IMG/VR virus record: IMGVR_UViG_3300028558_000022
Span: 26,979 to 90,978 of that record
Length of the DNA: 64,000 nt
DNA from: a virus
Direction: 5' to 3' (one strand)
The notes below the pieces were generated by a model. That model was not told the DNA's origin and searched no databases. It saw only the letters and a list, made by a program, of their open reading frames with translations. This document shows positions 1,679 through 54,583 of the stretch, in pieces; within the stretch, counting starts at the first letter, position 1, and each line of letters opens with the position of its first letter. Both the position numbers and the translations under genes were made by a program.

Positions 1679-1712
1679 TCTCATGTACCGGTAGCGGCTA
1701 AGGCTATGCTTG

Positions 1713-1743: not shown

Positions 1744-1781
1744 TGGCGCTAGATTAAAACCCTTGGGAGCTTCACCGGGCT

Positions 1782-2123: not shown

Positions 2124-2131
2124 TCTTCGCT

Positions 2132-10392: not shown

Positions 10393-10394
10393 CC

Positions 10395-10730: not shown

Positions 10731-10735
10731 GCGCT

Positions 10736-11056: not shown

Positions 11057-11433
11057 GTCATTACGACGGATGGGTCGGCGTAGACCTTGACGGTACGCTC
11101 GCCGTATACGATCACTGGCGCGGGCCGACTCATATCGGCGCCCCGATTCCCAAGATGCTCGAACGCGTCAAGGGTTGGCTCGCTGAAGGTAAAGATGTTC
11201 GTATCTTCACGGCCCGTGTCTACGCGCCAAAGGAACCGGTAACCGATCCGGCTGTACTACGGCGTCAGAACGAAGCGGTCGCCGCACTGATCGCGATTCG
11301 GGCATGGTGCGAAGAGCATATCGGTAAAGTGCTTCCCATTACCTGTACCAAGGATTACGGGATGGTTGTCCTCTACGACGACCGTTGCCGACAGGTAGAG
11401 CAGAACACCGGAAGAGTTATCGGAGAGGAATGA
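11053..11433 (+). CDS. Second HAD-like hydrolase
   Basis: 126 residues. Motif I is GVDLDGTLAVYD (Asp11 and Asp13); motif II is VRIFTARVY (Thr in the serine/threonine position); the expected downstream acids are in VVLYDDRCRQV. The layout is that of small phage HAD proteins; substrate unknown. It differs clearly from the HAD protein at 8962, so it is not a recent copy. Coupled to the genes before and after by ATGA overlaps. Confidence 0.75.
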   Translation: MSHYDGWVGVDLDGTLAVYDHWRGPTHIGAPIPKMLERVKGWLAEGKDVRIFTARVYAPKEPVTDPAVLRRQNEAVAALIAIRAWCEEHIGKVLPITCTKDYGMVVLYDDRCRQVEQNTGRVIGEE

Positions 11434-37015: not shown

Positions 37016-38208
37016 CAGTCATACTCCACACATAGCGTGCAAGGATAGTTGAAGCCTCCGCTGTTTCCCATAGGCGGTCCAATTCCGAAGTTACCAGCGG
37101 AGTTACGAAACGGTATGTATGTCTTTGTTTGCCCGTATTGGTTCGTCAACGTGAAAGGCACGCCTTCTGCAAAGTCACCGTTAGCGGCCACACCAAGAAC
37201 GGTACACGGGTAGTCCCACCTTCCGGGGCAAGGAGAAGTGAACCATACTGGCACGGTTCCAGCACCGGCTAGACTATTGTTGACACTGCTGAATATGGTT
37301 GGGTACGGTATACCGGTGCCGTTAGATACCTCAACACTTCTAGGAAAGTACCCCAAGACTCCGTAGGTGAAGTGAAGGGTTGACTGGAATGTGCTGGATG
37401 GGTATGCCTGATTAAAACTAACGAAGAATCGCGTACTTCCAAATCCAAACATGGATACATACTCGTTCGTCGTAGCTCCCGATGAGTTCAATGCCCTTTG
37501 AACACAGAATCCTTGACATTGGTAGAAACTGTTCCTAAACAGGATTATCGACAGCCTTCCACTGTCTCCCGAGAAGTCGCACTCAAACGACTGAGTGGTG
37601 CTGGGAGTAAAAATGCCTTGAGCATTAGTGGAGATCGGAATAGCAGCCGTTACGAATCCTGTCAGAGTACCGGAACCGTTAGTGGCTGTACCTAGACTGA
37701 TTCTTATCGTCGGCCATGCCATAGAACCGTTAGTGTTGTTGTTGCCGTACTCAAGTTTCAGGTAGAAATTTTGGTTGCCGTCACCCGGTTGCCAAATCTC
37801 GTAGTTATACACGTTACCGGCTGGAGCAGAAGAACTCTGTGTGACTACACCAGTACCGCCTGACGCGACGTTAACGCCTGAGGAATTTACACAAGTGAAT
37901 GTTCCTGCGCCCAGACTGGTAATTCTAAAGGTTCCGTTGTTTCCTGTGTTTCCTCCGGTCCACCCGGTAATCGTCAGGGTGCGGCCTACAGCCAATGCCA
38001 GTCCAGTCAAGCCGCTGTACGTACAGGTCATATTGGACCCAGACATTGAAACTGAGGAAATGCTCAGTCCGGTCCACATGATCTGTCCTGTATCTGTGCT
38101 TTGCAGCCATCCAACAGATGCTAAGAAGGCACTTACGGCTGAGGCCCATCCGTAGTAGTTAGCGTAGGTGGTTACATCAGCGACAATGAATGATTGTTGT
38201 GTTGCCAC
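37015..38208 (-). CDS. Tail/fibre protein, tandem copy 1
   Basis: 397 residues, about the same length as and clearly homologous to the neighbour at 38232. Residues 1-45 (MATQQSFIVADVTTYANYYG) are nearly identical in both; about 58-125 hold module A (TCTYSGLTGLALAVGRTLTI, then GNTGNNGTFRI) shared with two other virion proteins; the remainder is beta-rich with matching motifs (PGDGNQNFYLKLEYGN, SFECDFSGDSGRLSI) and a common end. Probably tail-spike or fibre subunits. Confidence 0.75.
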   Translation of the reverse strand: MATQQSFIVADVTTYANYYGWASAVSAFLASVGWLQSTDTGQIMWTGLSISSVSMSGSNMTCTYSGLTGLALAVGRTLTITGWTGGNTGNNGTFRITSLGAGTFTCVNSSGVNVASGGTGVVTQSSSAPAGNVYNYEIWQPGDGNQNFYLKLEYGNNNTNGSMAWPTIRISLGTATNGSGTLTGFVTAAIPISTNAQGIFTPSTTQSFECDFSGDSGRLSIILFRNSFYQCQGFCVQRALNSSGATTNEYVSMFGFGSTRFFVSFNQAYPSSTFQSTLHFTYGVLGYFPRSVEVSNGTGIPYPTIFSSVNNSLAGAGTVPVWFTSPCPGRWDYPCTVLGVAANGDFAEGVPFTLTNQYGQTKTYIPFRNSAGNFGIGPPMGNSGGFNYPCTLCVEYD

Positions 38209-38231
38209 AGTCCCTTCCCTTCAACTTCATA

Positions 38232-39437
38232 TCAGTCGTACTCCATACACATTGTCACTGCGAACGTCGCAGCACTAGTGTTTGTCAACGCCTGTGTTAT
38301 AGCTGTCTGAGCAGCGGAGGTCTTAGTTGGAATATAGGTCTTGGTTTGTCCGTACTGGTTTGTCACCGTAAACGGAACGCCCTCGATGAAGTCAACGTAG
38401 TTCGCTATCCCGATAACGGTGCATGGGTAGTCCCACATACCAACAACGGGTGAAGGATTCCACAGTGGGATCGATCCTCCAACAGCTAGGCTACCGATAA
38501 CACCCGTATTGGACTGAAAGTAAGGTATGCCGAGATAGTTAGCGTTGCTTGTCTGTATTGCACCGGGAAAATATCCAACCACCCCGTACTGAAAGTGCAA
38601 ACTAACCTGCCATGAGCTAGATGACATACGTTGAGCAGCGGAGAAGAATGAGTTACCGTTTCCGATCCCCCACATACTCACATACGTGGAAGTAGGGGAG
38701 CCTGACGCACTCAGCGACCTTTGGACTCCGAACCACTGGCACTGATAGAAATTGTTTCTAAACAGGCAGATCGACAACCTACCGGAGTCGCCAGAAAAGT
38801 TGCACTCATACGCCGCAACTGGACTTGGTGTCCAGAACGTCGTACTTGCGTTTGCTGAGAGAAATTTATCCGCTGTCGCGAAGCCTAGTAGGTTCCCGGC
38901 ACCATCGCTCTTCTGGGCAAGAGAAAGCCTTAAAGTAGGCCAATTGGCTCCTGACGTAGGGACGTTGCTGTTGCCGTATTCTAGCTTTAGAACAAAGTCT
39001 TGAAGTCCGTCCCCCGGATGCCATATCTCATATACGTAGTTACCGGCAGTTGGAACCGTTGAACTTTGTGTAACAATCCCTGTTCCACCAGAAGCGACGT
39101 TAACGCCTGAGGCATTTACACAAGTGAATGTACCGGCACCAAGACCTGTGATTCTAAATGTGCCGTTATTTCCTGTGTTTCCTCCGGTCCACCCGGTAAT
39201 CGTCAGTGTTCTACCGACTGCAAGTGCCAAACCAGTAAGGCCGGAGTATGTGCAAGTCATATTAGAGCCGGACATACTCACTGCGGTAATGCTTAGTCCA
39301 GTCCACATGATTTGCCCGGTATCGGTCCCTTGGAGCCATCCAACTGACGCGATAAACGCCGAGACCGCTGAACCCCAGCCAAAATAGTTCGCATAGGTAG
39401 ACATATCCGCAATGAGAAATGATTGTTGCGTTGCCAT
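38232..39437 (-). CDS. Tail/fibre protein, tandem copy 2
   Basis: 401 residues from ATG 39437 (TGGAG upstream); an upstream frame extension of ten residues lacks support. Paralogue of the 37015 gene: start MATQQSFLIADMSTYANYFG, module A with GGNTGNNGTFRITGLGAGTF, then GDGLQDFVLKLEYGN and YECNFSGDSGRLSI, ending MCMEYD versus LCVEYD. The DNA of module A is almost identical between copies, while the outer parts have diverged, suggesting recombination between them. Confidence 0.75.
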   Translation of the reverse strand: MATQQSFLIADMSTYANYFGWGSAVSAFIASVGWLQGTDTGQIMWTGLSITAVSMSGSNMTCTYSGLTGLALAVGRTLTITGWTGGNTGNNGTFRITGLGAGTFTCVNASGVNVASGGTGIVTQSSTVPTAGNYVYEIWHPGDGLQDFVLKLEYGNSNVPTSGANWPTLRLSLAQKSDGAGNLLGFATADKFLSANASTTFWTPSPVAAYECNFSGDSGRLSICLFRNNFYQCQWFGVQRSLSASGSPTSTYVSMWGIGNGNSFFSAAQRMSSSSWQVSLHFQYGVVGYFPGAIQTSNANYLGIPYFQSNTGVIGSLAVGGSIPLWNPSPVVGMWDYPCTVIGIANYVDFIEGVPFTVTNQYGQTKTYIPTKTSAAQTAITQALTNTSAATFAVTMCMEYD

Positions 39438-39439
39438 GT

Positions 39440-39880
39440 TTACTCCAGTTGCGCTGTAAACTCCCACGTTCCGGTTCCGCTTGTGATGTTCATATTGAAC
39501 ACATCACCTTGAGTGATACTTAGAGGAGAGGACGTAAGTGCGGTAAACGTGAAGGTCGATCCGGCCACAACTCCACTTGAAATTGATGGATTCGCCGAGA
39601 AGACATTTGTCCCGTTCTGCGTAATGTTGAAGGTTAGACCGGTAGTAAGATCAGACTTCGTGACTACAACGGCGCACTTTGTTACATACCCATTGCGAGG
39701 AGCAATTCCGTACAGCGCGACATTAGAGCCTACTGTCCCACTTGAGATCGAAAATGCTACCACAATGGGAGGCGTATTCGTTACGGTCACAACGCCGGGT
39801 GACGTTATCACCGCGCTCGTCGTTCCGCCCAAGTTGAAGTCGATCTCATTTATTCCGTTTGTGTTTACCGGGATGCTCAT
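39440..39880 (-). CDS. Beta-rich virion protein
   Basis: 146 residues. All-beta with alternating Thr/Ser/Val (NTPPIVVAFSISSGTVGSNV, SDLTTGLTFNITQNGTNVFS, GDVFNMNITSGTGTWEF). A related stretch (FSIKQNGTQVATLTFNTGSS) occurs in the 47630 protein, so this fold is used more than once. Probably part of a tail appendage. Confidence 0.65.
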   Translation of the reverse strand: MSIPVNTNGINEIDFNLGGTTSAVITSPGVVTVTNTPPIVVAFSISSGTVGSNVALYGIAPRNGYVTKCAVVVTKSDLTTGLTFNITQNGTNVFSANPSISSGVVAGSTFTFTALTSSPLSITQGDVFNMNITSGTGTWEFTAQLE

Positions 39881-39889
39881 TGACCGCCC

Positions 39890-40297
39890 TTAGTAACCAG
39901 CCAAGCCCGCGTTCGTCGCGTACCAATTTGTGTCCGCAGAGTTGTACGAAAACCTCTGAGCGGTTCGCTTGTTTGCAGTTGTGCTTATGGCTATCGCACC
40001 GAGAAGATTGGACGGGAGCGTTACCGCATGGCCGGATGCGTCCTGTACCCAAATAATCGTGATTTCCTGACCATCAATGACGCCGCTAGGGACTGTAATG
40101 GATGTCAGAGCTTGATTGACGCTAACGAAGAAACTTGAGTACAGAGTCGCATCCAAAGTGATCGTACCGGATGAAGGTGTGACCGTTTGCTTTTTGATGC
40201 CGTAGTACCCAGAGACATTCCCGGAGCTATCTTGCTGCCATGTAATGTTTGTCCCGCCAGCGGGTGCGGCGGGAGTCGTGTTACTTAGGTTAATCAC
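39890..40297 (-). CDS. Beta-rich virion protein
   Basis: 135 residues. Disordered Pro/Gly/Ala N-terminus, then SSGTITLDATLYSSFFVSVN and EITIIWVQDASGHAVTLPSN, a repeating strand-turn pattern seen in phage fibre C-termini. Its end (ADTNWYATNAGLAGY) is aromatic. No enzyme motif. Confidence 0.65.
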   Translation of the reverse strand: MINLSNTTPAAPAGGTNITWQQDSSGNVSGYYGIKKQTVTPSSGTITLDATLYSSFFVSVNQALTSITVPSGVIDGQEITIIWVQDASGHAVTLPSNLLGAIAISTTANKRTAQRFSYNSADTNWYATNAGLAGY

Positions 40298-40319
40298 TCG
40301 ATGTTGCCCTTTTTACACT

Positions 40320-41411
40320 TCAACCAATAAACCAGCCAGTGCCGTCAGACCATACTGGGACTTTATTTGCCCCGCCACTTGTGTATGCCGTTCCGAATGT
40401 ATTGGCCGTAGCATCACTAACGAACGCTCTTGCACCCACGCCCGCTGTTGCGGCTGAGACTATTGGCGTTCCGGCTGCACTATAAACAATCTTTGCTTTC
40501 GTGTAGGGTAGCTCTACCGGTCCTGCAAAAGAACTTAAACTAGTTCCTTCTGAGAATAGTTGGTAAACGGTTCCAACACCTGAAGCATTCTGCTCTTGGA
40601 TGTACAAGCCACGACGCAACGTGATTGTTGAGCCGTTGGTCAGTACCGGAGTGTTAACGTTTATACCGTTTGCTTCGTCGATGGTCCCTGCGTTCGTCTC
40701 AAAATATACATCTACGTTCGTGGCATTTGCCATTCCCCCGACACTGTTGTTGTAAATGTCGAATTGGGCGTTCGTCGCATTGTCTATTCTGCCTGTGCCA
40801 TTATTGGCGACTGCCGCTCCCATCCCAAAAGCCGTCTGGACTTCTCCAGATGATGTATTTGTAATACCGCAGTCAAAGGCGAACATCGTTGGCAATGCCG
40901 ATGCGCCCGTCCCTGTACCGCTGTAATTTGCGTTTGCCTGAAACGCCGCTCCGCCCTGCGTCCAGTTGTTCCCGTTCATATCCATTTGAATCTTAATGGC
41001 GGTAGGAAAAGCGGTCTGAGAGGCAGATGGATCGAGTGTCAATCCTACAAATAATCCATTCTCGGTCGATGAATTATTATTGGTTTCAGTAACGACAACA
41101 ATTGAGGCGGAAGGGCTTCCATCTCCAGTCGGCACACTGTCAATGGTCGATCCCGCGCCAAATGCAAAGTGTGTACCGTTGGTTGTGCCACCTGATGCAC
41201 CGGCAAAACTAGCAGCATTGTTAAACTGAATTTCTGAAGTCGATCCACCGGGATTACCGCTACCAACAGACACGACTTCCCAGCCATTACCGGCTGATAT
41301 GTACAACTCTTTGTTCACAACGTCTACACCGAACGATGGACTCTGATGTGAACCCGGAGCGGCGACATCCTGTACTGTCGGATCGCCTTGGAATACCTTA
41401 TCGAACGCCAA
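40320..41411 (-). CDS. Tail fibre-like protein
   Basis: 363 residues rich in Asn, Thr and Gly. N-terminus MAFDKVFQGDPTVQDVAAPG is of the type seen in phage fibre attachment regions; the middle is a long series of short beta-strands with NNGT- and DxYNNS-type turns (TGRIDNATNAQFDIYNNSVG), like a trimeric beta-helix. The C-terminus (GGANKVPVWSDGTGWFIG) is typical of fibre tips. Receptor unknown. Confidence 0.7.
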   Translation of the reverse strand: MAFDKVFQGDPTVQDVAAPGSHQSPSFGVDVVNKELYISAGNGWEVVSVGSGNPGGSTSEIQFNNAASFAGASGGTTNGTHFAFGAGSTIDSVPTGDGSPSASIVVVTETNNNSSTENGLFVGLTLDPSASQTAFPTAIKIQMDMNGNNWTQGGAAFQANANYSGTGTGASALPTMFAFDCGITNTSSGEVQTAFGMGAAVANNGTGRIDNATNAQFDIYNNSVGGMANATNVDVYFETNAGTIDEANGINVNTPVLTNGSTITLRRGLYIQEQNASGVGTVYQLFSEGTSLSSFAGPVELPYTKAKIVYSAAGTPIVSAATAGVGARAFVSDATANTFGTAYTSGGANKVPVWSDGTGWFIG

Positions 41412-41439
41412 TTTCTTTTCTCCTATTATACAACGCGTG

Positions 41440-41712
41440 TCAAGCGCCGTTGACCTTAACCATCTTCGGAACGTTAACGGTGATTAGGTAGTCATCGCTC
41501 ACCGTCACATTGTTGACTTGAATCGCCGCACGGATTGTCGGTTCCCACATATTCGTATTCGGGTTGAACTCAATAACCTCGCCGCCGATGAGAACGACGT
41601 TATCAACTGTCTTCCCACGAATGCCTACAACGGTCGCGTTCTGATTGCCAGCTTGAGACTGTACGTCGCCTTGTAACGGGTATAGGCCGCCCGGAAAGAT
41701 TTCGCGGTTCAT
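41440..41712 (-). CDS. Small virion-associated protein
   Basis: 90 residues from ATG 41712, which overlaps the stop of the preceding gene; GGAGAG lies just upstream. Beta-rich: TVVGIRGKTVDNVVLIGGEV followed by IRAAIQVNNVTVSDDYLITV. The frame is open further upstream but only as an antisense-like overlap with the 41712 gene. Probably a small head-tail or fibre accessory. Confidence 0.65.
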   Translation of the reverse strand: MNREIFPGGLYPLQGDVQSQAGNQNATVVGIRGKTVDNVVLIGGEVIEFNPNTNMWEPTIRAAIQVNNVTVSDDYLITVNVPKMVKVNGA

Positions 41713-42434
41713 TAGCTCTCCAGTCCGACGTATTGAATCGTCAAGGTCACCGCGTCGCTTGTCGCATCCAGATTCGTAATCGTCACGTAGACTGTCCCAA
41801 CTTGCGGGGTGTCTGCGTTGGCGCCGATTCGGTTCTGAAAGCTCCACTGATACGGGACCGTATCAAGGGCCACATCGCAGATAATGTTCTGCGCGGTCCC
41901 GGCTCCGGGCGGAGCGTCTAACGCGCGTGACAAATCTTGTGTCTGTGCGAGTGCTGTGCCGTAGAGTTGAACCCTACACGGACTGCCGACCGCAATTGAG
42001 AGAAGTTGGAAACTCTTCGGCATCGTGAAAGAGCCGACGAATTTGTTACCGGGAAATATGACAGGCGTCTTTACGACCGCCTGTGCCGCAGTGATCGAAC
42101 TGCCGCTTGAAGAACCACCGCCGCTCGATCCGCTTATGACGGTCGTATTGACAGTTGTAGTACCAGACGCCCCGACCGGCCCCAGCGACACCGGAGTAAG
42201 CAAACGCCGTTGAGGAACCTGACCCTTGACGTAGAACTGTCTCAGGGAGTCGGGTGACGCTTGCCACAATGGAGGCAATGGGCAGCGAATCATGGTATTC
42301 CTACCCGGTTCAAGACCGCCCGCCTGTTGTCCGTCGAATGTCGGCGACGGTGTGGGAGGGGCCGGACTTGGCGGGGTAGGTTGGTACCCCGTCAAGTTCT
42401 GCTTCGACACAATCGCATCAGCGATAGATGGCAC
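41712..42434 (-). CDS. Virion protein
   Basis: 240 residues. A Pro-rich linker (QPTPPSPAPPTPSPTF) near the N-terminus, a Ser/Gly linker (SGSSGGGSSSGSS) near 105, and a C-terminal beta domain (SFQLLSIAVGSPCRVQLYGT, GTVYVTITNLDATSDAVTLT). The last part looks like a jelly-roll subunit. Sits just after the large tail protein and coupled to the 90-residue gene. Confidence 0.65.
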   Translation of the reverse strand: MPSIADAIVSKQNLTGYQPTPPSPAPPTPSPTFDGQQAGGLEPGRNTMIRCPLPPLWQASPDSLRQFYVKGQVPQRRLLTPVSLGPVGASGTTTVNTTVISGSSGGGSSSGSSITAAQAVVKTPVIFPGNKFVGSFTMPKSFQLLSIAVGSPCRVQLYGTALAQTQDLSRALDAPPGAGTAQNIICDVALDTVPYQWSFQNRIGANADTPQVGTVYVTITNLDATSDAVTLTIQYVGLES

Positions 42435-42435
42435 G

Positions 42436-45400
42436 TCAATTCTCCTGTAAATAGCCGCCGAACACGGTGAGACTATTTAACTCGTTCGCGTAATTCTCAG
42501 CCGCCCACTTCACTTGAATCTGGATGTGGCGGCAAGCCGCTGCATCTTTCATCTCGTTTAGATAGAAACGCTGCGAATAGAACGAACGGCTTTCTTTCAG
42601 TCCGGGAGGATCAGGCTCCCATTTCTTCAGAATCTCGAACGGACCTTGGTAGTAAGGCAATGCCTCATCTACCAGTAGTCCGAGTGTGAGAGGGGTTCCC
42701 ACTCGCACTGATTCTGTTGTAATGAACCCGATGACTGCTACCTGTCCGGGTTGCGCCAATACCACCGACCCGATAACAGCATTGGCCGAATAGTTCTGAC
42801 CGTTGTCTTGGCTACTGCTCAAGTCGCGGTTCAAAATAGGTCCGGTTGCCGTTGGGCCGAGTAACAAACGATGCACGCCCGGCTGAACCTCGATACTCTG
42901 TACCGCTTTGCAGCCGCCGACAATTGTCGCAAACGGTGACCACGTATATCCCGTCTCAGGGGATGGGGTAGGTATCAATCGATACCATCCGTACTGACCG
43001 TCCGATACAAACCAGCCCTGATCTTCTCCATTGACGTACCACGTAACGTACACATCAGAGGAGTCCCATGTTTGACCGGGTTGTCCGTTGTTCAAACGGA
43101 ACTGATCGCCGATGGGGAAGCCCGCGTATGTGTCGCCCGCAGACGGATCGAGAATACAGAACTGATTGTCAGTCGTAAAGAACCCGATGAGCGACCCGTT
43201 GAGATCGAGAGCGTTGTAGCTCAAGAGACCAACACCTTCCATGATCGGAATGGGACTCTGGATCGGATTCGATGCCGTGCCCTGCCCTTGGATCGCGTAC
43301 ACATCCGAAACCGTGAACACAATCGCGCCGACCGCAGTCGGAACAATTCGTTTCACGAGCGACGGGAAGTTAGCGAAGTTCAACGGCGGAGTTCCGTTGA
43401 TTCCGTTACCTACCGGCGTATCGGGACCGGCTGTCCAGTACACGGTGTTACCGATGCTGTAGAAAATGCGGTTCAAGTGAAACGCGAGATTCATAGCGCC
43501 GGAAGCCGGAGGGGTGTTCTCCCCGGCGACAGCACCTTGGATCAGATTGTTCAGACCTGTATCCGGTGTGCTGTCTGTATAGCCGTTCACAATGTACTCC
43601 GCAAGCGGTACCGTGTACGTTGTGTACTTACCCGGTATCAGGAACGGAGTTGACTGACCGTCCGTTGTGCGGAAGATCGCAACGTAGTCACTTTGCGGAT
43701 CGATCTTGTCAAGACTCGGTAACCCGGCGCCGGGCGCCAAGGTCACTCCGGCAACGCCGATAAAGTTCCCGGTCGCTGCGGATAGAGTCGTGCAATTCGA
43801 CACTGTGTTGTCGAGCGTGTTTACAAGTGCTACCGCGTATTTCCAGCCACCGTTAAATGTACTGACCGTTCCAGTCGGCGGACTCGTTGCCGCACCGTCA
43901 TTGATCCAGATGAGATTTGGATTGTCCAACGTGAGTTGGTTCAATCCCGTCTGGAATGTCGGGGCAGTCGTGCCCGTCACACCTGACCTGTACGGCGTTT
44001 CTTTGTTGCCGTTCGGATCGGTGATAGACGAGTTAGCAAGTGTGAAGTTTGTACCGCCTGTCCAAACGAAGTCCGTGACCGGTCCGATATTCCACCATGT
44101 CAACTGACCGTTGGTCTCAGTCACGCTGGGATATTTCGGAGCGTAAGACGTGCTCCAAGACGGCCACACCGGGACATTCGTACCGCTCTCGGGGACACCG
44201 TTCGCAAGAGGAAAACCATTGCAGAGTACGTTTAGAACCTGACCTGAGTGGTACCAGTAATCAATGTCAAGCTCAATCGGATACACACCCGCAGTGGGGA
44301 AGTTCACCGTAAACGTATCGATGTTGGTCCCGCTAAGGTTCGTTCCGCCAAAGACGGGATAACCTTGTGCCGGAGTAATTGTCTGTCCGCTGGGATTGTT
44401 GTTCGGTCCACTGACTAGCGTGGCCCCGTTTCCAATTCCCCAAATCATACCGTCATGATGAGTGATCGTGAAGGTATACTGCCCGGCAACCGGTACGTTA
44501 AGGGACGACAGGATGATGAGCTGATAGTCCTGATGAAAGGACGGGAACGGATTCGTAGTAGAAACCGTCTCGCCCGCACCGTTCGTTACAACCCAGTTCA
44601 ACGAAGAGCCTGAACTCAACGGAGTGCCGGTATAGCTCAAGCTATTCAATGTCGTCGCCGACGCGAGCGCCGAGCCGGTGCTTGTGGGGTTCGTAAGAAT
44701 CACTCGTCCGACCGGACCCGAAGTCGGGGCCGAGTACAGATAAGCACTTACATTACCCTGAAGCGTTGGCTGCGATTGAGGCGCCAACTGAAACAGACAG
44801 TTCGTTCCGTAAGCATTTCCTATGACGAACTGACTCTGCGTTACCGCCGTGCCGTTTGCTGTCTCTGCAACGCCTGACGCGTTCTGAAGCGTGACGGTCG
44901 TCGATGACGACGCAGTGCAAAGGAATGTTCCGTTGTTCGCAGAGTGCGTGAATCCAGTTACAACGAAGAGCTTCCCGGCATAAGCGTTCAGTGCTCCGCC
45001 AGTGACACTGCCCGTGTATACCGTTGTGCCCGCGCTCGCATTGGCAACCGAAGTCAGGGCCAAAGTCGCGCCGGGGACGTAGTTCGTGTGTGACGACCAA
45101 TTCAATGAGGCCGCCGTCTGGATCATTCTCCAAACGACCGTGCCGTCTGTCGTTGTAGTACCGACACTCGTTGCCCACGTAGGCGCTGATGTGCCGCTCT
45201 TCCCTGCTGTGACAACCTGTTGGAGGTTTCCGTTCGCGTCGATTATGACGCCAGCATAAGAGAAATAAGTACCCGATCTCCACGATACCGCCGATTGGCC
45301 GATAGTCGGGGTAATCGCCGTCGTCGGCATGGCGATTCCCCAATTCATAACCGGGTTACCGCGATTCGTCCATTGAACTGTACCGTCAATGGTCGTGCCG

Positions 45401-46302
45401 CCTTGGTAGTTGTTCCCGCTCGCCGGGACAACAGTGCTCCATGTCGGAACGACTCCACCGGAAATAGGTGTTGACGTTAGTGTCAGCTCAGCGGCCTGAA
45501 CGTTGCTCTCAGCGGTAGGGCCGTAGTCACCTGTCGTAAACGTTGCGGTGAAGGTGCTGCCGGAAACGGACACTACAGTGACGGTCTGATTCTCCAATAC
45601 AGTCGCGGCCATGCTCGCCGGGAATTGAATCACGCATCCCGTACTGAGTACGTTCGTCAATGCCGTACTCGCCGTGACCGTCAAAACATTACTCGTGACC
45701 TGAGTCTGAGTAACAGTGATGACGGTACCGGTAAGCTGCTGAATGTTGCCGTTTGGGTCTATCAGAAATGTCGAAAAGAACGAAGACACCGGTCCGTTCC
45801 AAACGGTGTTTCCCGTCCAATTGACGAGCGTCTGAAGCCACTTTTTATTACTGACTCCATCTCCCCAGTACAAAGAGTTCCCTACCGATTGCATGTAGCT
45901 CTGCCCGGCGCCCGTGGTCTTTGTCCAGAGGAGTGTCTTAGTTCCTTGGTAAAGCGAGTAAAGGGCGGCGGCCTGATCCACCATGATCTTGATCTGTTCA
46001 ACGTTCGCATCGAACATGCGGAACTCGTAGAACCGATTGACTGAGGTATAGGAGTTCGAGTCGTATACAGGATTACCGGGGCGCCGACCCAGTGTCAGTC
46101 GGTTTGTGATCTCAACGTTACTACCAGCAATGAGCGCATCGCCAGCGGCCCCGTAATACTTCTCCGTGATTCGAGTTGTAGTGGCATCACGTAACGGACT
46201 GCGATTCGTGTTCAAACCACCTGACCAGCGACCTACATAGATAGTCGCAAATTTTGTCTCGCTCTGTGGCTGAGCGCCGGATAGTCCTAAAATGTTTGGC
46301 AT
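42436..46302 (-). CDS. Large tail protein (tail-tubular-B-like) with inserted modules
   Basis: 1288 residues. The start (ATIYVGRWSGGLNTNRSPLR, then YYGAAGDALIAGSNVEIT) and the end (PGLKESRSFYSQRFYLNEMK) fit podovirus tail tubular protein B (T7 gp12-like), but it is about 500 residues longer. The surplus is made of modules: three copies of the DPNGNxQ...APTW...DGTVxW unit (one split by another module), one GSTFTATFTTGDYGPTAES unit, one NNGTF unit with ANNGTFLCTASSS, and a PA14-like carbohydrate-binding barrel (GQYTFTITHHDGMIWGIGNG). It likely forms the tail nozzle and binds the cell surface. Confidence 0.75.
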   Translation of the reverse strand: MPNILGLSGAQPQSETKFATIYVGRWSGGLNTNRSPLRDATTTRITEKYYGAAGDALIAGSNVEITNRLTLGRRPGNPVYDSNSYTSVNRFYEFRMFDANVEQIKIMVDQAAALYSLYQGTKTLLWTKTTGAGQSYMQSVGNSLYWGDGVSNKKWLQTLVNWTGNTVWNGPVSSFFSTFLIDPNGNIQQLTGTVITVTQTQVTSNVLTVTASTALTNVLSTGCVIQFPASMAATVLENQTVTVVSVSGSTFTATFTTGDYGPTAESNVQAAELTLTSTPISGGVVPTWSTVVPASGNNYQGGTTIDGTVQWTNRGNPVMNWGIAMPTTAITPTIGQSAVSWRSGTYFSYAGVIIDANGNLQQVVTAGKSGTSAPTWATSVGTTTTDGTVVWRMIQTAASLNWSSHTNYVPGATLALTSVANASAGTTVYTGSVTGGALNAYAGKLFVVTGFTHSANNGTFLCTASSSTTVTLQNASGVAETANGTAVTQSQFVIGNAYGTNCLFQLAPQSQPTLQGNVSAYLYSAPTSGPVGRVILTNPTSTGSALASATTLNSLSYTGTPLSSGSSLNWVVTNGAGETVSTTNPFPSFHQDYQLIILSSLNVPVAGQYTFTITHHDGMIWGIGNGATLVSGPNNNPSGQTITPAQGYPVFGGTNLSGTNIDTFTVNFPTAGVYPIELDIDYWYHSGQVLNVLCNGFPLANGVPESGTNVPVWPSWSTSYAPKYPSVTETNGQLTWWNIGPVTDFVWTGGTNFTLANSSITDPNGNKETPYRSGVTGTTAPTFQTGLNQLTLDNPNLIWINDGAATSPPTGTVSTFNGGWKYAVALVNTLDNTVSNCTTLSAATGNFIGVAGVTLAPGAGLPSLDKIDPQSDYVAIFRTTDGQSTPFLIPGKYTTYTVPLAEYIVNGYTDSTPDTGLNNLIQGAVAGENTPPASGAMNLAFHLNRIFYSIGNTVYWTAGPDTPVGNGINGTPPLNFANFPSLVKRIVPTAVGAIVFTVSDVYAIQGQGTASNPIQSPIPIMEGVGLLSYNALDLNGSLIGFFTTDNQFCILDPSAGDTYAGFPIGDQFRLNNGQPGQTWDSSDVYVTWYVNGEDQGWFVSDGQYGWYRLIPTPSPETGYTWSPFATIVGGCKAVQSIEVQPGVHRLLLGPTATGPILNRDLSSSQDNGQNYSANAVIGSVVLAQPGQVAVIGFITTESVRVGTPLTLGLLVDEALPYYQGPFEILKKWEPDPPGLKESRSFYSQRFYLNEMKDAAACRHIQIQVKWAAENYANELNSLTVFGGYLQEN

Positions 46303-46324
46303 TCGATTCTTTTGGTCTCTTTAT

Positions 46325-47620
46325 TTACGGAGTTCGCGTGTTACCTACATTCACCCATACGCGCGGAATGTTCGGCACGGAGTAAATAGTCATCTGAAGG
46401 TTATTCAAATCGACCTGTGCGCCGTTGGATAAGGTACCGCTGATATTCACGCCGAGAGTGTTGGTTCCGTTAACGGCATTCCACGCAAGCGGCCCGACGC
46501 CCCACGTATCGCCGTCGCCGCCGAGAGTATAACTAGATGCCCAGCTACCTACCGTGAGGTTCTTCGGCGTACCTATTGGCGTGCCATTCAAAGTAAGCTG
46601 GGCCACGAGATTCGCAGCTCCACCGCCTACTGAGTCTCCAGTAGAAAAGTTGACCTGAACTCCAGAAGTACGACTAGCTCCGGGAATGTTGATTGTGAAA
46701 TGTGATGCGCTCAACGTTTGAAGTTGAGTAGCACCGACAGGAGTTCCTCCGCCCGGTAGAGAGTACACAACTGCTACGCCGAAAAACGATATATAGCTGT
46801 TGTAGAAATAAGGGGTACCGACGCCAGCGGTCGTAGACTGAATCTCAAAGCTAAAAGTTACACTCGAAAGAACTGACAGACTCGTACCGAGATTCGGACC
46901 TACCTGCAACGTACCATCCAAGGGGAATTGATAGGACAAGCTCGTCGGGTAATGTACCTTGAAACCCTGAGTGGAGCCGCCCGCTGTGGTCCCTTGTGCG
47001 ACGGGATAAATAGCTTGCACTACGGCGCCGGGAGGCAAAGTCGGTATCGTGCATGACCCACTTGTTGAAACTAAAAGCGGAGCAAACGAGCATCCATCAC
47101 ACCCACCGCCGCCGCGAAGTGTGCTTACATAACCGCCCGGCAGAAGATTAAAGCATCCTCCAATAGCGGATTGTGGGTTGGGATCGGGACCGGGCGGTCC
47201 TGTGTAGACCACATATTGCCCGACTGGTGGCGTTACGGCTTGGAAGTTGGCCGCATAGGTGTACTTCGTTGTCGGAGTGGCGACTCCAAGGTCAAACGTG
47301 GAACTAACATCAGCGTGAGTGAAATTCGCAGAAAATGAAGTTGAACTAAGTCCAGCGGGAAGGACAGTGAGTGTCACGCCGTTCAAGTATGTACCAGTCA
47401 GAAGGCTAGAGATCACTACACTCTGACCGGCTGAAAGCGTAACTCCCTGAGGGTTCGTAGAAAAGCTGACTACATTCGAACTTATCGAGAATCCAATGAT
47501 GAAAGCAACCGCTGTCGTACCTATTCCTGTACTTGTAGCCGAGCTGGAATCTGCCCAGAGTATGCCTTCACCCTGACTTGTAACTGATCCCGGACTTATC
47601 GGGCCAAACGGTATTCCCAT
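46325..47620 (-). CDS. Virion surface protein with a module-B unit
   Basis: 431 residues from ATG 47620 (AGGGG five bases upstream); GTG 47623 is the alternative. Near residues 42-115 is module B (SVVISSLLTGTYLNGVTLTV then FSANFTHADVSSTFDLG), related to one unit in the 1288-residue protein. A Cys-containing turn (RGGGGCDGCSFAPL) follows, and the C-terminal 220 residues form a large beta-sandwich (SRTSGVQVNFSTGDSVGGGA, NLQMTIYSVPNIPRVWVNVG). Probably a tail appendage. Confidence 0.7.
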   Translation of the reverse strand: MGIPFGPISPGSVTSQGEGILWADSSSATSTGIGTTAVAFIIGFSISSNVVSFSTNPQGVTLSAGQSVVISSLLTGTYLNGVTLTVLPAGLSSTSFSANFTHADVSSTFDLGVATPTTKYTYAANFQAVTPPVGQYVVYTGPPGPDPNPQSAIGGCFNLLPGGYVSTLRGGGGCDGCSFAPLLVSTSGSCTIPTLPPGAVVQAIYPVAQGTTAGGSTQGFKVHYPTSLSYQFPLDGTLQVGPNLGTSLSVLSSVTFSFEIQSTTAGVGTPYFYNSYISFFGVAVVYSLPGGGTPVGATQLQTLSASHFTINIPGASRTSGVQVNFSTGDSVGGGAANLVAQLTLNGTPIGTPKNLTVGSWASSYTLGGDGDTWGVGPLAWNAVNGTNTLGVNISGTLSNGAQVDLNNLQMTIYSVPNIPRVWVNVGNTRTP

Positions 47621-47629
47621 CACTTACCC

Positions 47630-48334: not shown

Positions 48335-48337
48335 TGT

Positions 48338-49324: not shown

Positions 49325-49327
49325 TAA

Positions 49328-49663
49328 TTAACTCCCAAATGAATCGCCAAACGCTATTCCGAAACCGGATATTTGTTGATAAACAATTACCTTCAGCGGA
49401 CCGAGAACAAGCTCGCCGTCCGACGTAAATCCGCGAAGGATGTAGTACGAATCGGACGGGGATAACTGACTGTTAGGCCAAACTTGAGGTACAGATACCA
49501 GTGCGCCGTTAGCGTCAAGCGTTCCCCGTAACGTCATACCCTGACATAACGACCCGCTCGGGGATTTGACATCCTCATTGAGTTCGAGAAGGATGTACCC
49601 GTTACTAAGTACATTGCCGGATGGGTCCGTGAAGGTGGTATATGGAAAGGCTTGACGGGCCAT
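49328..49663 (-). CDS. Small tail appendage protein
   Basis: 111 residues, homologous throughout to the first half of the 47630 protein: TFTDPSGNVLSNGYILLELN, TLDANGALVSVPQVWPNSQL, then YYILRGFTSDGELVLGP. Stand-alone form of that beta domain; it may act as an adaptor between the tail and the two larger fibres encoded beside it. Confidence 0.7.
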   Translation of the reverse strand: MARQAFPYTTFTDPSGNVLSNGYILLELNEDVKSPSGSLCQGMTLRGTLDANGALVSVPQVWPNSQLSPSDSYYILRGFTSDGELVLGPLKVIVYQQISGFGIAFGDSFGS

Positions 49664-50578
49664 TTATAGTCCTCGTGCTTGGTATCCCTGCTGCATCTTG
49701 TTTGAATCAGAGATAGGCTGGCCGGTGTTCTGCTGCCAACCTTGAAGGAAGATATTCCTCTTTGTCTCGTCCATCCCTTCGGCGGTACCTAAGAGCTGTG
49801 AAACAAACTTCTGATTTGCGACAGCGTAACGGGGATCGTCGGCGAAGAGCCACATCAAACTAAGGAATCCCCAGTTGTAGATGCGTGCGTACTCATCCGG
49901 GATCGGCGCCCATGTCTGATTGACGCTCGTGAACTGAGCGGGCTTCTGCTGCAAAGTGATCGCGACCGGGTATGCTTTATCCGGTACCGGCATTAGCCGG
50001 AAAGTGATGTTACCGTTTCCGTCATCGCCCTGAGCCGAAACGAAGCGCGGTCTTGCTTGAGAAGAATCCAGAGCAAGGTCAAGCTCGTTCGTCATCTCGA
50101 ACCACTTCGCTGTACCATTCACCGTATCCTGTACGGAAGCGTTCTCAACGAAACCCATACTGTAGGTCTGTGAGGTTGTCGTTCCGATGAGACCGATATT
50201 CGTCCAAACGGCACTGCCGTCTACCGTTGTCTGCCCTGTCGTTGCGTTCCAAGTCGGGGCCGAAGCGCCGGTAGGTCCGGCTGTAGTCACCTTCTGACAG
50301 TTGCCGTTGTTATCGACAAGCACCCAGCCGAGTTTGACAGCGGTCGTGGCGGCCCAGTTGAAGATTGTGTAATCCTGCTGACCCGGTACCGTAATGAACC
50401 CTGTCACAACGCGATTCCAGCGCCATGCGAACGGCGGTCCAAGGATGGTCTGCATCACCGTGTTCGCGCTCGTCATCGCGGGTTCGAGAAAGTTGCCGAT
50501 AGCAGAACGACGCCCGAAGTTGAGTTTCTTTGCCCACTCCATTGTGCGGAGTAGTGTATTTGCGGAAGATGATGCCAT
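49664..50578 (-). CDS. Tail adaptor protein (tail-tubular-A-like), copy 1
   Basis: 304 residues. Helical N-terminus (TSANTVMQTILGPPFAWRWN) and C-terminus (EYARIYNWGFLSLMWLFADD) framing a beta part, as in podovirus tail tubular A/adaptor proteins. Inserted at about 80-125 is module C (DNNGNCQKVTTAGPTGASAP then TTVDGSAVWTNIG). Paralogous to the 50587 protein, with the same WxWNR start and PDxxxxxYxxGF end. Confidence 0.65.
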   Translation of the reverse strand: MASSSANTLLRTMEWAKKLNFGRRSAIGNFLEPAMTSANTVMQTILGPPFAWRWNRVVTGFITVPGQQDYTIFNWAATTAVKLGWVLVDNNGNCQKVTTAGPTGASAPTWNATTGQTTVDGSAVWTNIGLIGTTTSQTYSMGFVENASVQDTVNGTAKWFEMTNELDLALDSSQARPRFVSAQGDDGNGNITFRLMPVPDKAYPVAITLQQKPAQFTSVNQTWAPIPDEYARIYNWGFLSLMWLFADDPRYAVANQKFVSQLLGTAEGMDETKRNIFLQGWQQNTGQPISDSNKMQQGYQARGL

Positions 50579-50586
50579 TTAATTCC

Positions 50587-51702
50587 TTAGTTCGAGTTCC
50601 ATGCGCCGAAGGGGTAGGCCGGATTGATCGGATTCATATTGACTCCGGTGTCCATGATCGAAGTACCCGGATAGAAACCCACATCATCCATCTCGCGATC
50701 CGATTGACGAACCGCTTTATCAAGTGCCTCAAGGAAGAGCTGACGCTCTAACTGATACTTCGCGCGAATCTTCTGATCGGGATTACGTCTGTAGCACTCA
50801 GCGAAGAACCCTTGCTTGAAGTGCGTTACAAAGTCGTCCGGGATCGGTTCAAGCGTTTGACCCAGCGCGGAGAATCTCGGCGCCCTCATTTGCGCTACAG
50901 GTTGAATTAGCCATACGACGCCCGTTTGCGGCGGGATCGGGTTGAGCCTGAATCCCTGACCTGACGGGTTGATCGCGGTCCATACGCAAGTACCATCCGT
51001 AACGGTAGTGGCAACCTGATTCGGATTCTGAAGTGTGGGGTACACCGGAGTTGTCGGCCATGTAGGTTGCGTATTACCGCAAGTACCGTATGTCGTCAGT
51101 GCCCAGAGGTTACCGTTCGGATCGGTGATGCAAGTTGTGGCATTGATCGGCTGATTAGCGATTCCAATTGGATTCGTATAGATCACTCCGGGACCGGGAT
51201 TCTGTATCCCGCTCGGATTGGCACCTATTGAACCGACATCCCCGGACGGGTTGCCCGCAGTGGGACCGAGTGGCACCGCGCCCCATGTGCCGGTCTGCAA
51301 AAGACTGTTAGGAATCCAGCAAATCTTTCCGGGATACCCGGTCTGATCGTAGGTAACCTCAAGGTCTTTCTTGACCTCAAGCTGTTGCTTCTGTTTCGGG
51401 ATCGATGTTTGATTGATGTTGACGGCCCAGCAACTTTCGAGCCATCCAATGTTGATGACACCGGGGACAAAATAGTCCTGCTGATAGCTGATCGTTGCGA
51501 ACGGCTTGACATTAAATCGATTCCACTTCCAGTTGTAGGGCTGCCCAGCGGGACCGCCGTTAATCATCGCTTGCATGACATCGTTCGCAATCGAGATCGC
51601 CGGGGCGTCTGAAAAGCCACCTGTGGCAAGGGCCGGTGATACGTCTCCTAATGACGAAGCGTCATCTACAATCTGCTGAAGTGTGGTATTTGAATTTGGC
51701 AC
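50587..51702 (-). CDS. Tail adaptor protein (tail-tubular-A-like), copy 2
   Basis: 371 residues. Same plan as the 49664 protein: ISIANDVMQAMINGGPAGQP, NWKWNRFNVKPFATISYQQD, and near the end PIPDDFVTHFKQGFFAECYR. It carries a longer module C variant (TDPNGNLWALTTYGTCGNTQ, later TTVTDGTCVWTAINP) and a Pro/Gly/Asn-rich linker (PSGDVGSIGANPSGIQNPGP). Two such adaptors side by side suggest two rings in the neck or a heteromeric tail joint. Confidence 0.65.
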   Translation of the reverse strand: MPNSNTTLQQIVDDASSLGDVSPALATGGFSDAPAISIANDVMQAMINGGPAGQPYNWKWNRFNVKPFATISYQQDYFVPGVINIGWLESCWAVNINQTSIPKQKQQLEVKKDLEVTYDQTGYPGKICWIPNSLLQTGTWGAVPLGPTAGNPSGDVGSIGANPSGIQNPGPGVIYTNPIGIANQPINATTCITDPNGNLWALTTYGTCGNTQPTWPTTPVYPTLQNPNQVATTVTDGTCVWTAINPSGQGFRLNPIPPQTGVVWLIQPVAQMRAPRFSALGQTLEPIPDDFVTHFKQGFFAECYRRNPDQKIRAKYQLERQLFLEALDKAVRQSDREMDDVGFYPGTSIMDTGVNMNPINPAYPFGAWNSN

Positions 51703-51714
51703 TCGATTGTTTCC

Positions 51715-52143
51715 TTACTGCAAGAACAAGGTTCGCTCGCTTGTACGGCGCCGAACCAAACCATCAAATCTCTTACCGCCCGCGTAAACCCATTGCATGA
51801 ATTGATCGGCAGCGGCGGCAAGGTCTCCGTTGTTAACGTCCTTCAAGAGTGTTGACTGAAGGAAGTTCGCCCGGCCAACGTTGAACGTGAAATCGACAAG
51901 GGCATCAAATTGAGCTTGGTCGATTGGGTAGGTGACGGCGTGCTGAACGCACGCGACGGCGGAAGCGATGTCCGCCAAAAGTAATGTCTCGGCTTGCGCC
52001 TGAGTGATGGTCATCCCCGGTACAACATCATGCCCGGTGTGACCGTAACCTATTGTCCAAATTCCTCTCACATCTTGGTAGGCTGTGAGGCGTAAGCCCT
52101 CAAAGCTCTCTGTGAGCTTGAGGCCGTTTGCGTCGTATTGCAT
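51715..52143 (-). CDS. Endolysin, T4-lysozyme-type muramidase
   Basis: 142 residues, GH24 family. The catalytic triad area is intact: Glu15 in ESFEGLRLTAY, Asp24 in YQDVRGIW and Thr30 in WTIGYGHTG. It hydrolyses the MurNAc-GlcNAc bond of peptidoglycan. There is no signal peptide or anchor, so it needs a holin (candidates at 28700-29355). It lies among tail genes, about 22 kb from the holin-like genes, and so may also serve in the virion. Preceded by a terminator at 52166-52198. Confidence 0.92.
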   Translation of the reverse strand: MQYDANGLKLTESFEGLRLTAYQDVRGIWTIGYGHTGHDVVPGMTITQAQAETLLLADIASAVACVQHAVTYPIDQAQFDALVDFTFNVGRANFLQSTLLKDVNNGDLAAAADQFMQWVYAGGKRFDGLVRRRTSERTLFLQ

Positions 52144-52165
52144 TCATCATCCTTGGCGCAAACAC

Positions 52166-52198
52166 GAAAAACCGGCCTTGAGTTGAGTCAAGGCCGGT
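52166..52198 (-). terminator. Rho-independent terminator (- strand)
   Basis: Perfect 11-bp stem ACCGGCCTTGA (52171-52181) / TCAAGGCCGGT (52188-52198) with a 6-base loop; read on the - strand the final T joins TTTT. It follows the 52208 gene and would reduce transcription into the endolysin and tail genes. Confidence 0.88.
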
Positions 52199-52207
52199 AG
52201 TGAATCG

Positions 52208-52810
52208 TTATCGCAATGTTGAGTCTTTGGTCACTTCGCGGAAGTATGCGCCGTTATCCGAGAAGCGGAACAGATAAGACGAGGACGGAGAGTTCTTCGT
52301 CGGGAAGTTCTTCGCCTGTTCGTAATCGTTAAGAGCTTTGACGTATTCCTCGACCGACTTGTAATGATCCTGAACGGCAGGTTTCCAAGTCTTACCGCAA
52401 CGTTGGCAGCGAATCCACATATCGCCGTTCAACATCGTGTGTTTGATTACCGCGTAGTCAAGCGAATCGCCCTGACCGCCGATCACGCCAGCCGCGCCGT
52501 TGCCGCCCTTACGGTGGTTACAACGCTTCTGAACTGCCTTGTCCTGTTCGGCAAGGGCCTTCAGAGTGGTACCGTTTGTGATGCTCGTCTGTCGGACCAA
52601 CTCGCGGCGATTCTGACGCTCTGCAAGTCGTTCCTGAATGTCTTCGAGGTTCGCTTTCTTTTCGGCAACCTCAAGCCGGAGGCGCTCAAGCTCAAGTGCT
52701 TTTGCTTCCTCTTCCTCTTCCATCGCCGCGATTTTATTCTTCGCGGGCTTTGCGGGCGCCTGATTGTCTACGCCCTCAGCCGTTTCCGGCTTCTGAATCT
52801 TCTCGTCCAA
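52208..52810 (-). CDS. Coiled-coil protein with a zinc site
   Basis: 200 residues. Residues 28-75 form a strong Glu/Arg/Leu coiled coil (EEEEAKALELERLRLEVAEK). C-terminal to it are KRCNHRKGGNGAAG and MWIRCQRCGKTWKP, three Cys and a His in zinc-ribbon spacing. The end resembles a small beta fold (SSSYLFRFSDNGAYFREVTK). Not recognised. Located between capsid and tail genes. Confidence 0.7.
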   Translation of the reverse strand: MDEKIQKPETAEGVDNQAPAKPAKNKIAAMEEEEEAKALELERLRLEVAEKKANLEDIQERLAERQNRRELVRQTSITNGTTLKALAEQDKAVQKRCNHRKGGNGAAGVIGGQGDSLDYAVIKHTMLNGDMWIRCQRCGKTWKPAVQDHYKSVEEYVKALNDYEQAKNFPTKNSPSSSYLFRFSDNGAYFREVTKDSTLR

Positions 52811-52819
52811 AATTCCTCC

Positions 52820-53509
52820 CTATCGGATTTCTAAGCTGTTGCCGTTGTTACGGAACGCTTGCAACAAACTGTTGTACCGGTGAAATGCGTCTGTCTGTTT
52901 CGGATGTCCGAACATCTTGTTCGCTTCGCGCTCGCTGACAATCCCTTTGAGAAGTAATTGCAGCAAACAGGTTCTCCATCCACGCCGACGCTCGTTCACC
53001 GGAATACCGTGCTCATCGAATCGCATGATCGAAAGCTCCGGCATAAAGCCAAGCTGTACCCAACAAGCGGTCTCAAGTCCTCGACCTTCTCGAAGGACGA
53101 CCAGAGTTGCTTTATCAGGGTGTGGATGGTCACGATACCAACACTCGACGTTCATCTTGCGAAGGATCGTGATGAATTGAGCGTGCGTTAGCACTTGCCC
53201 GATTCGTTGTTCAAGGTCTGCGTACTCTTCCGGCGTCAGCCAACGATACTCTTTCGAGATTTCGTCGTTAATTTCTCGCTGACGGTGAAGTTCCTCTTTT
53301 GCTTCATTTGTGGACTCGGTTTGATCGTACCGACGCTCGGCGTATTCGGCTACAGCCGCCGCCAGTTCGGAAGACATCTTTGTTTCCATCTCGGCGCCGT
53401 AGGATTCCCACGGGGCCTTTTCGCTCAAACGAGTTCCTTGACCTGTAACTGATTCCAAGCTCTCCCCTTGGTAGATAACGTGTCTCCCGTTCAATGAAGT
53501 CCATGACAC
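52820..53509 (-). CDS. Hypothetical protein
   Basis: 229 residues from ATG 53509; the Shine-Dalgarno is poor and starts at internal Met41 or Met45 are possible. A charged helical middle (EAKEELHRQREINDEISKEY) and a folded C-terminal half (VLTHAQFITILRKMNVECWY, ELSIMRFDEHGIPVNERRRG) with a conserved-looking RGWRTCLLQLLLKG motif. Similar proteins are found next to capsid genes of podoviruses, but I cannot name a family. Confidence 0.65.
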   Translation of the reverse strand: MSWTSLNGRHVIYQGESLESVTGQGTRLSEKAPWESYGAEMETKMSSELAAAVAEYAERRYDQTESTNEAKEELHRQREINDEISKEYRWLTPEEYADLEQRIGQVLTHAQFITILRKMNVECWYRDHPHPDKATLVVLREGRGLETACWVQLGFMPELSIMRFDEHGIPVNERRRGWRTCLLQLLLKGIVSEREANKMFGHPKQTDAFHRYNSLLQAFRNNGNSLEIR

Positions 53510-53625
53510 TCATTGAGGGGAGTGCAAGCATACGGACTGGCCGGTCACATAGCTCACAAAATGCCAAACCACGTTGGCCGGATATGAGTAATCCACTCTC
53601 ACCGGTAACTCAGTTTGGCGCAAAC

Positions 53626-53949
53626 TCAATTTCCTTCTGCTGATGTGCTCTTGGTAGGCCCTTGGGCCATCTCGCGATACACCTTCAATGCGCGTATGGA
53701 GACATCGACTATTTCGTCATAATCCTCTGGGCCACAGGGAGGCTGGAACCCACCTTCTTCCCAGAGTCTCCGAAGAGACAACTCAGCGGCAGGACTGGTT
53801 TCACAAAGGGCAGCAAAGAGCGTATCGGAACGCTCCCCTTCCCTTCGTACTCGCTTTCTCAGCGAACTTACGATGCGGCGTAGTGTCCGGTTTTGCCGAC
53901 GCACTACGCTCTGCATCTCAATTGGTTCTGAACAACTCTCGCAAAGCAT
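53626..53949 (-). CDS. Small protein with a Cys knuckle
   Basis: 107 residues. Starts MLCESCSEPIEMQSVVRRQN, a single CxxC with a following basic helix, then an acidic part (LWEEGGFQPPCGPEDYDEIV). Unrecognised. A short frame upstream of the next gene (53510-53567) begins with a similar CxxC and P(V/I) pattern. Confidence 0.6.
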   Translation of the reverse strand: MLCESCSEPIEMQSVVRRQNRTLRRIVSSLRKRVRREGERSDTLFAALCETSPAAELSLRRLWEEGGFQPPCGPEDYDEIVDVSIRALKVYREMAQGPTKSTSAEGN

Positions 53950-53983
53950 TCGGCGCTCCTCTTTCGCACAAATGTCCTAGAGG

Positions 53984-54583
53984 TTACAGACCTACAAAGA
54001 CGTTGATTTCCTTGTAGATTTTCTCCACTGGTAGGCCGTTCATCGGGTTACCCGAGCTGGAGATATTTCCCAGAGTGTTGTTAAACACCGGGTAAGATAC
54101 CTCAATCACGGTGTTGCCAACCGCCACACCGGTAATGACACCGGTAGCGGAAACGGTCGCAACGCTGGGATTCTGCGACCAGAAGGTCAGTGCGGCTGCA
54201 CCTTCAAGGGTTGCGGTACCCGCGTGCGTCTCGGAGACACCCGCAGCGTTGTCCACAGTCAGGGTCGTAGTGCTCGATGCCGTGACAATGAACGTACCGT
54301 TGTTCGCGCCAGTCGTGAAACCGGCGATTACAACTTCTCTGCCAACGAGAGCATTGCTCCCGCCGCCCGTGATGGTACCGGTGTACTGGGTCGTGCTACC
54401 ACTTGCGTTAGCAGCCGCGCTCAATACAAGAGCAGTTCCGGGGTCCGCGTTACCAGCGGAATCCTCAACCGAAGCGTTGATCTGATGAGTGGCAGTGCCA
54501 CCCAGCGACAACGACAGTGAGGTTGAATCGACGGCGATCTTTGTTGCCGTCCCAACTCCGTCAGTCTGAGCAGGATAAGTCAT
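53984..54583 (-). CDS. Capsid decoration-like protein, BIG2 domain with inserted module A
   Basis: 199 residues directly after the major capsid gene. A bacterial Ig-like (BIG2) domain is recognisable in two pieces: KIAVDSTSLSLSLGGTATHQ at the start and SQNPSVATVSATGVITGVAV at about 136-155. Between them (about 51-128) lies module A (TQYTGTITGGG, VVIAGFTTGANNGTFIVTAS), which is also found in three tail proteins. Place and domain suggest a capsid decoration protein that adheres to surfaces. Confidence 0.75.
   Translation of the reverse strand: MTYPAQTDGVGTATKIAVDSTSLSLSLGGTATHQINASVEDSAGNADPGTALVLSAAANASGSTTQYTGTITGGGSNALVGREVVIAGFTTGANNGTFIVTASSTTTLTVDNAAGVSETHAGTATLEGAAALTFWSQNPSVATVSATGVITGVAVGNTVIEVSYPVFNNTLGNISSSGNPMNGLPVEKIYKEINVFVGL

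Follow-up and report, generated by a model that had tools for sequence, protein, structure and literature searches.

Domain swapping in phage proteins is known mostly from fibres, spikes and lysins: otherwise unrelated phage proteins have domains in common, and this mosaicism is richest in tail fibres, spikes and endolysins (PMC10684548). The nozzle protein of kuravirus SU10 carries extra Ig-like domains beyond its propeller, four in all (PMC9509320), and many decoration proteins act as capsid cement (PMC7602432). We analysed a 64,000-nucleotide stretch of viral DNA (the window), which corresponds to bases 26979–90978 of the 90,978-bp virus record IMGVR_UViG_3300028558_000022 and in which three small modules, A (~78 residues), B (~75 residues) and C (~57 residues), recur among putative virion proteins. 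An earlier note on this DNA had proposed that they are mobile domains inserted in surface loops. In contrast to the described mosaicism, the carriers here are decoration, adaptor and nozzle-like proteins, the inserts lie within other domains, and among close relatives a single loop can be seen empty, filled or with its occupant swapped. In decoration and neck proteins, phages with 77–90% identical capsid proteins differ in whether a given loop is empty, holds one insert, holds several or has been refilled with a different domain.

Among the named phages of the collection, only Tunturiibacter phage Tunturi_3 (PP885686.1) is a close relative; its capsid protein shows 88% identity along the whole length. 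A megablast search of phage records with the region gave no match, and Tunturi_3 was reached by protein-level search only. It is an isolated podovirus with a 77-nm head and a 21-nm tail, infecting the tundra acidobacterium Tunturiibacter psychrotolerans X5P2 from Finland, and a text search of its description met no passage with 'structural protein', 'ice-binding' or 'mass spectrometry' (PMC11924767). Since this close relative was isolated on an acidobacterium, the host of the window phage is probably an acidobacterium too. Tunturi_3 shares the gene order of the window. Its decoration gene, gp7, encodes two copies of A, both adaptors (gp12 and gp13) carry module C, and gp19 is a homologous tail protein that lacks both A and B.

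Insertions, empty sites and swaps in virion proteins

Relatives were collected by scanning viral contigs with the capsid protein, which yielded 211, and the best 80 of these 211 (77–90% identical) were kept. The minus-strand virion genes of the window run in the order portal, capsid protein, decoration protein, adaptors (371 and 304 residues), several smaller proteins, a protein named here by its coordinate 46325, and a 1288-residue tail protein. Module profiles were built from relatives only, with no window sequence so as to avoid circularity, and were searched against all window open reading frames of at least 60 residues together with 1,400 shuffled proteins. Every copy that the earlier note had claimed was detected above all shuffles (best shuffle 6.3 bits for A, 7.1 for B and 8.0 for C; scores of the copies in the table) and lies within a few codons of where it had been placed. 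The list of copies is amended in that the A copies at 37–39 kb and, in the tail protein, C copy 3 are weak, remote matches; the B copy of the 46325 protein lies near the N-terminal end and is not evidently nested. In the tail protein, C copy 1 is recovered as two half-matches that flank module B. By BLASTP within a seven-protein set, the A modules of the decoration and tail proteins are 55% identical over 83 residues (E ~1e-22), and profile–profile comparison gave P-values of 1e-32 for the same pair and 1e-6 for A against the 37–39 kb copies (hhalign), of 3e-9 for B between tail protein and adaptor, and of 5e-24 and 2e-9 for C of the tail protein against C of the 304- and 371-residue adaptors, respectively. 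These sequence comparisons support a common ancestry of each module across its carriers. A single family comprising A and B was considered and is ruled out, the profile comparison showing no relation. The remote A carriers (397 and 411 residues) are tandem paralogues, 65% identical, and their two A copies are therefore counted as one event. In these two genes a 300-nt block (37822–38121 and 39051–39350) covering the N-terminal part and module A has 79% DNA identity.

In the decoration protein, module A had been read as splitting a BIG2 domain, and this proves to be a real insertion. Big_2 (PF02368) passes its curated cut-off in the window protein (23.5 bits against 22.8), and in relative L057 the decoration protein has 127 residues, no A and one unbroken BIG2 domain (residues 36–95; E 5e-8, 33.1 bits). 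An AlphaFold model of the window protein, with a mean predicted local distance difference test (pLDDT) score of 83, places a six-stranded A between BIG2 strands 37–41 and 133–136. Alignments to lone-BIG2 decoration proteins of 82–167 residues cover 183–186 query columns, which we read as spanning the insert, and a fold match is found to the Presley decoration protein. The decoration proteins of relatives hold from zero to three A copies, and A may itself be the carrier: eight of the 12 distinct two-copy decoration proteins are nested, with the second copy around the first, one is weak and three are tandem. The nested cases have a leftover first strand before the inner A, and joining it to the remainder raises the score of the outer module by 8 to 12 bits, above every shuffle. 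Relative L014 suggests that inner A copies can occupy two different loops of one outer A.

The splitting of a C copy by module B in the 1288-residue protein is likewise a true insertion, with the same C copy unbroken and free of B in four relatives (named in the table). In L117, L119 and L120 the A of this protein is cleanly missing and the flanking sequence runs on, and in L092 the usual A site is empty and A lies instead at residues 712–784. The protein is probably a nozzle, by analogy with SU10 architecture and from gene order. The SU10 adaptor family PF24175 matches the 304-residue protein here, and where the SU10 nozzle has four Ig-like domains, modules A, B and C and a PA14-like domain occupy the corresponding stretch. 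Its C-terminal core gave no significant sequence match in the PDB. The 304-residue adaptor passes the PF24175 cut-off (30.9 bits against 27) and has one loop with different occupants, namely C in 20 proteins (window included), a B-type module in nine and none in two. The 371-residue paralogue is tied to the family by BLASTP to the 304-residue adaptor only; in L074 the 371-type adaptor has a B-like module inside C. Separately, the 371-type adaptor of L015 (532 residues) has inside module C a stretch of ~160 residues (8680–9180) that looks by eye like a PA-IL-type lectin, a candidate rejected after no Pfam or PDB match was found.

We consider A, B and C to be compact all-beta plug-in domains that sit in surface loops of virion proteins and have been swapped over time, with a probability of roughly three in four. 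They are inserted in-frame into loops, presumably at the virion surface, in a lineage of podoviruses whose hosts are probably Acidobacteriota from tundra and peat soils; the carriers are the decoration protein with its BIG2 fold, the two adaptor paralogues, the nozzle-like tail protein and, as with A in A and B in C, other modules. These inserts would tolerate splicing into loops and leave the carrier fold intact, and may serve as interchangeable, outward-facing tips that are adhesive or extend the surface. The empty, filled and swapped sites in relatives, and the position of A between BIG2 strands in the AlphaFold model, bear out the view of the units as domains inserted in loops; they are not one continuous fold, and profile searches of phage proteins place A beyond this phage, in proteins of unrelated phages. 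Several points weigh against our reading. Occupants are stable within clades, ligand binding by A, B or C finds no support, the model of a tail-protein fragment is of moderate confidence (pLDDT 76, predicted template-modelling score 0.54), and the position of the carriers on the virion surface, like their copy number, is inferred, the former from gene order and homology.

Possible roles of the inserts

One alternative, possible though we would not back it as it stands, gives the modules a structural role, as spacers or stabilisers that enlarge or rigidify their carriers and bind no ligand. The capsid-cement role of many decoration proteins would suit this, as would the fold of module A, which in the model may resemble the FCCH barrel of ubiquitin E1 enzymes. 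Foldseek with the decoration model gave the E1 enzymes UBA6 and UBA1 among the best compact single-domain matches (~80 columns, root-mean-square deviation 3.6–3.8 Å, probability 1.00; for UBA6, 3.7 Å and E ~0.03); that the matched parts are module A and the FCCH domain is our presumption from size and from the structure of E1 enzymes. Pfam gave no FCCH (PF16190) match in the decoration or tail proteins at E up to 1, and the FCCH domain is not known to be a lectin. Module B matches nothing, and neither B nor C matches a carbohydrate-binding family. However, the decoration slot varies from zero to three copies among phages with 80–90% identical capsid proteins, which makes a fixed structural need unlikely, and the same carriers take ice-binding-like domains, while the tail protein has a lectin-like PA14 domain.

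That PA14/GLEYA-like domain, which lies beside the modules, speaks for the earlier note's own proposal of binding to host or soil carbohydrate, which we regard as tentative. By fold it resembles the PA14 domains of Epa, Flo and MpAFP (yeast and bacterial lectins, often sugar-bound; E 1e-5 to 1e-3, probability 1.00), although its Pfam PA14 score at residues 582–679 is below the cut-off (17.2 bits against 24). It was not named in the earlier note and is the only part that resembles a lectin. Module C also matches a PHROG annotated head decoration. The modules themselves lend it no support: A, B and C have no Pfam match to a carbohydrate-binding module (CBM) or lectin family, and A and C have none in the PDB. 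Module C was also tried as CBM5/12, a guess from its motif that neither Pfam nor the PDB bore out.

We rate selection of the modules for adhesion as an even bet, given that PA14-like and ice-binding-like domains are found in the same carriers. The ice-binding-like domain PF11999 (DUF3494) comes after a pair of A copies in the decoration-protein loop of L077 (10607–12232; E 6e-34) and L017 (11635–13269; E 9e-37), is found in the tail-protein homologues of L133, L229 and L252, and forms a separate 394-residue gene adjoining the capsid gene in L041, L044, L045 and L033. Among solved structures, the L077 domain matches those of ice-binding and antifreeze proteins, with 6eio as the best match (E 2e-20). 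In the window phage PF11999 was not found by two profile searches, the control of one of which gave no match anywhere. Viral PF11999 genes from Arctic seawater have been interpreted as auxiliary genes with a possible role in protecting the host (PMC11515562), whereas in these relatives PF11999 lies within virion-protein genes, which suggests from sequence that some viral ice-binding-like domains are parts of the virion and not host-helping genes. A bolder extension, about which we are rather doubtful, is that the loops are interchangeable virion sockets for A, B, C or ice-binding-like domains, nested if needed, that tune the stickiness of soil phages, and that particles in cold soil would themselves carry an ice-binding or ice-adhesion domain in place of a host-protecting auxiliary gene. 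The list of PF11999 domains in decoration or tail proteins, or in the gene beside the capsid gene, also includes L261:3737–4921.

Pace and mode of exchange

When mapped on a tree built from the tail-protein core, the A site requires at least four changes and the B site at least three, and on the capsid tree the decoration slot requires at least 13 among 52 phages, a figure based on automatic labels that genes cut at contig ends may inflate. The adaptor loop needs only two changes and occupants are constant within clades, so shuffling is slow. Copies of A mostly group by site, loosely, in a poorly resolved tree (74 columns), and A copies from different phages share no more than ~78% DNA identity over 100 bp (~84% over 43 bp), except in one identical record. 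That record, of 4,459 bp, has an A (L134:734–1333) identical to the window copy and is probably the same phage. Between window genes there are no high-identity module copies besides the tandem 37–39 kb genes, and no reverse transcriptase (PF00078) was found in the 91-kb record, which may be incomplete, with the control positive. From the site-wise grouping, the low DNA identity and the lack of a reverse transcriptase, the sequences indicate that exchange is real but old, the modules having moved repeatedly and not recently; the occupants of each loop would be gained, lost or swapped through ordinary recombination, with no dedicated mobile element involved. That modules were recently copied from gene to gene within a genome was also considered, and is not supported by the A tree or the DNA searches. 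What stands of the label 'mobile domains' is therefore the swaps and repeated changes, whereas recent mobility has left no sign.

That the units repeat a single continuous fold, with alignment artefacts posing as insertions, is very improbable: all segments are Thr/Ser/Gly/Asn-rich beta proteins and may look alike by composition, but the window-free profiles score above all 1,400 shuffles, homologues have empty sites, and A and B are unrelated. Hardly any weight can be given to a dedicated element for moving or varying the modules, for example a diversity-generating retroelement, which the many Asn-rich copies in putatively host-facing proteins might suggest but which is at odds with the missing reverse transcriptase (in a possibly incomplete record), the lack of recent transfers among loci and the restriction of high-identity copies in the window to the tandem genes.

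Wider occurrence, naming and coordinates

A scan with module A returned 144 stretches. Carriers in unrelated phages include a baseplate-hub protein (L137) and a Phage-tail_3 protein (L138) that also has PA14 and GLEYA domains, and in L162 module A, PF11999 and module C occur together in one protein. Another lineage (e.g. L194, L196 and L203) has A in both adaptor-like proteins, identified as adaptors by gene position and length, and in the tail protein. A 1981-residue protein with three consecutive A copies is encoded in an Acidobacteriaceae metagenome-assembled genome from palsa (L275:2414–8359), the single relative found when genome contigs were scanned with a tighter A alignment.

In the Tunturi_3 record the decoration protein gp7 is named 'tail fiber protein', and the tail protein gp19 carries the name 'head decoration protein'. 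The latter label is probably due to module C with its match to the PHROG annotated head decoration, and annotators should be aware that inserts common to different proteins appear to give misleading names. With Tunturi_3 as its cultured member, the lineage offers a natural series for testing insert function.

Table. Positions of the module-bearing genes and their parts in the window (aa, amino-acid residues)
Feature	Positions	Strand	Basis
Decoration protein, 199 aa, BIG2 interrupted by A	53984..54583	minus	directly downstream of major capsid gene; Pfam Big_2; AlphaFold pLDDT 83; lone-BIG2 alignments
BIG2, first part (aa 13–49)	54437..54547	minus	continuous with second part in L057
Module A copy 1, in BIG2 (aa 50–126)	54206..54436	minus	100.7 bits; pLDDT mostly 84–95, six strands
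BIG2, second part (aa 128–165)	54089..54202	minus	Pfam Big_2
371-aa adaptor paralogue	50587..51702	minus	BLASTP to 304-aa adaptor, E 1e-6
Module C in 371-aa adaptor (aa 182–245), in a loop other than that of the 304-aa adaptor	50968..51159	minus	31.4 bits
304-aa head-tail adaptor, SU10_adaptor family	49664..50578	minus	Pfam PF24175, E 5e-7
Module C in loop of 304-aa adaptor (aa 73–129)	50192..50362	minus	83.4 bits; loop empty in L128 and L131, B in nine relatives
Module B copy 2, N-terminal in 46325–47623 protein (aa 41–112)	47288..47503	minus	21.4 bits
1288-aa tail protein, probably nozzle	42436..46302	minus	modules between residues 167–803; conserved core 1–165 and 818–1288 (homologue alignment)
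Module C copy 1, first half (aa 167–192)	45727..45804	minus	18.5 bits; unbroken in L085, L086, L117, L120
Module B copy 1, splitting C copy 1 (aa 191–273)	45484..45732	minus	77.3 bits; absent in L085, L086, L117, L120
Module C copy 1, second half (aa 275–314)	45361..45480	minus	22.5 bits
Module C copy 2 (aa 339–395)	45118..45288	minus	57.2 bits
Module A copy 2 (aa 412–489), between ...TxY and NGQFVIG...	44836..45069	minus	100.1 bits; cleanly absent in L117, L119, L120
PA14/GLEYA-like, lectin-type domain (aa 582–679)	44266..44559	minus	Pfam PA14 17.2 bits, below cut-off; Foldseek to Epa, Flo, MpAFP PA14 lectins
Module C copy 3 (aa 745–803)	43894..44070	minus	11.2 bits, weak; conserved in homologues
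Remote module A copy, 397-aa protein	37843..38073	minus	14.7 bits; hhalign P 1e-6
Remote module A copy, 411-aa tandem paralogue	39072..39302	minus	14.0 bits

The capsid gene itself appears to vary among the relatives. In L250, L251, L253, L255 and L258 (near bases 450–3000) it appears as two open reading frames ~900 bp apart, and in L078, L079 and L080 (near 10001–11290) it measures 1258–1288 bp against an expected 1029, which suggests that in some relatives this gene is interrupted by introns or other inserts.

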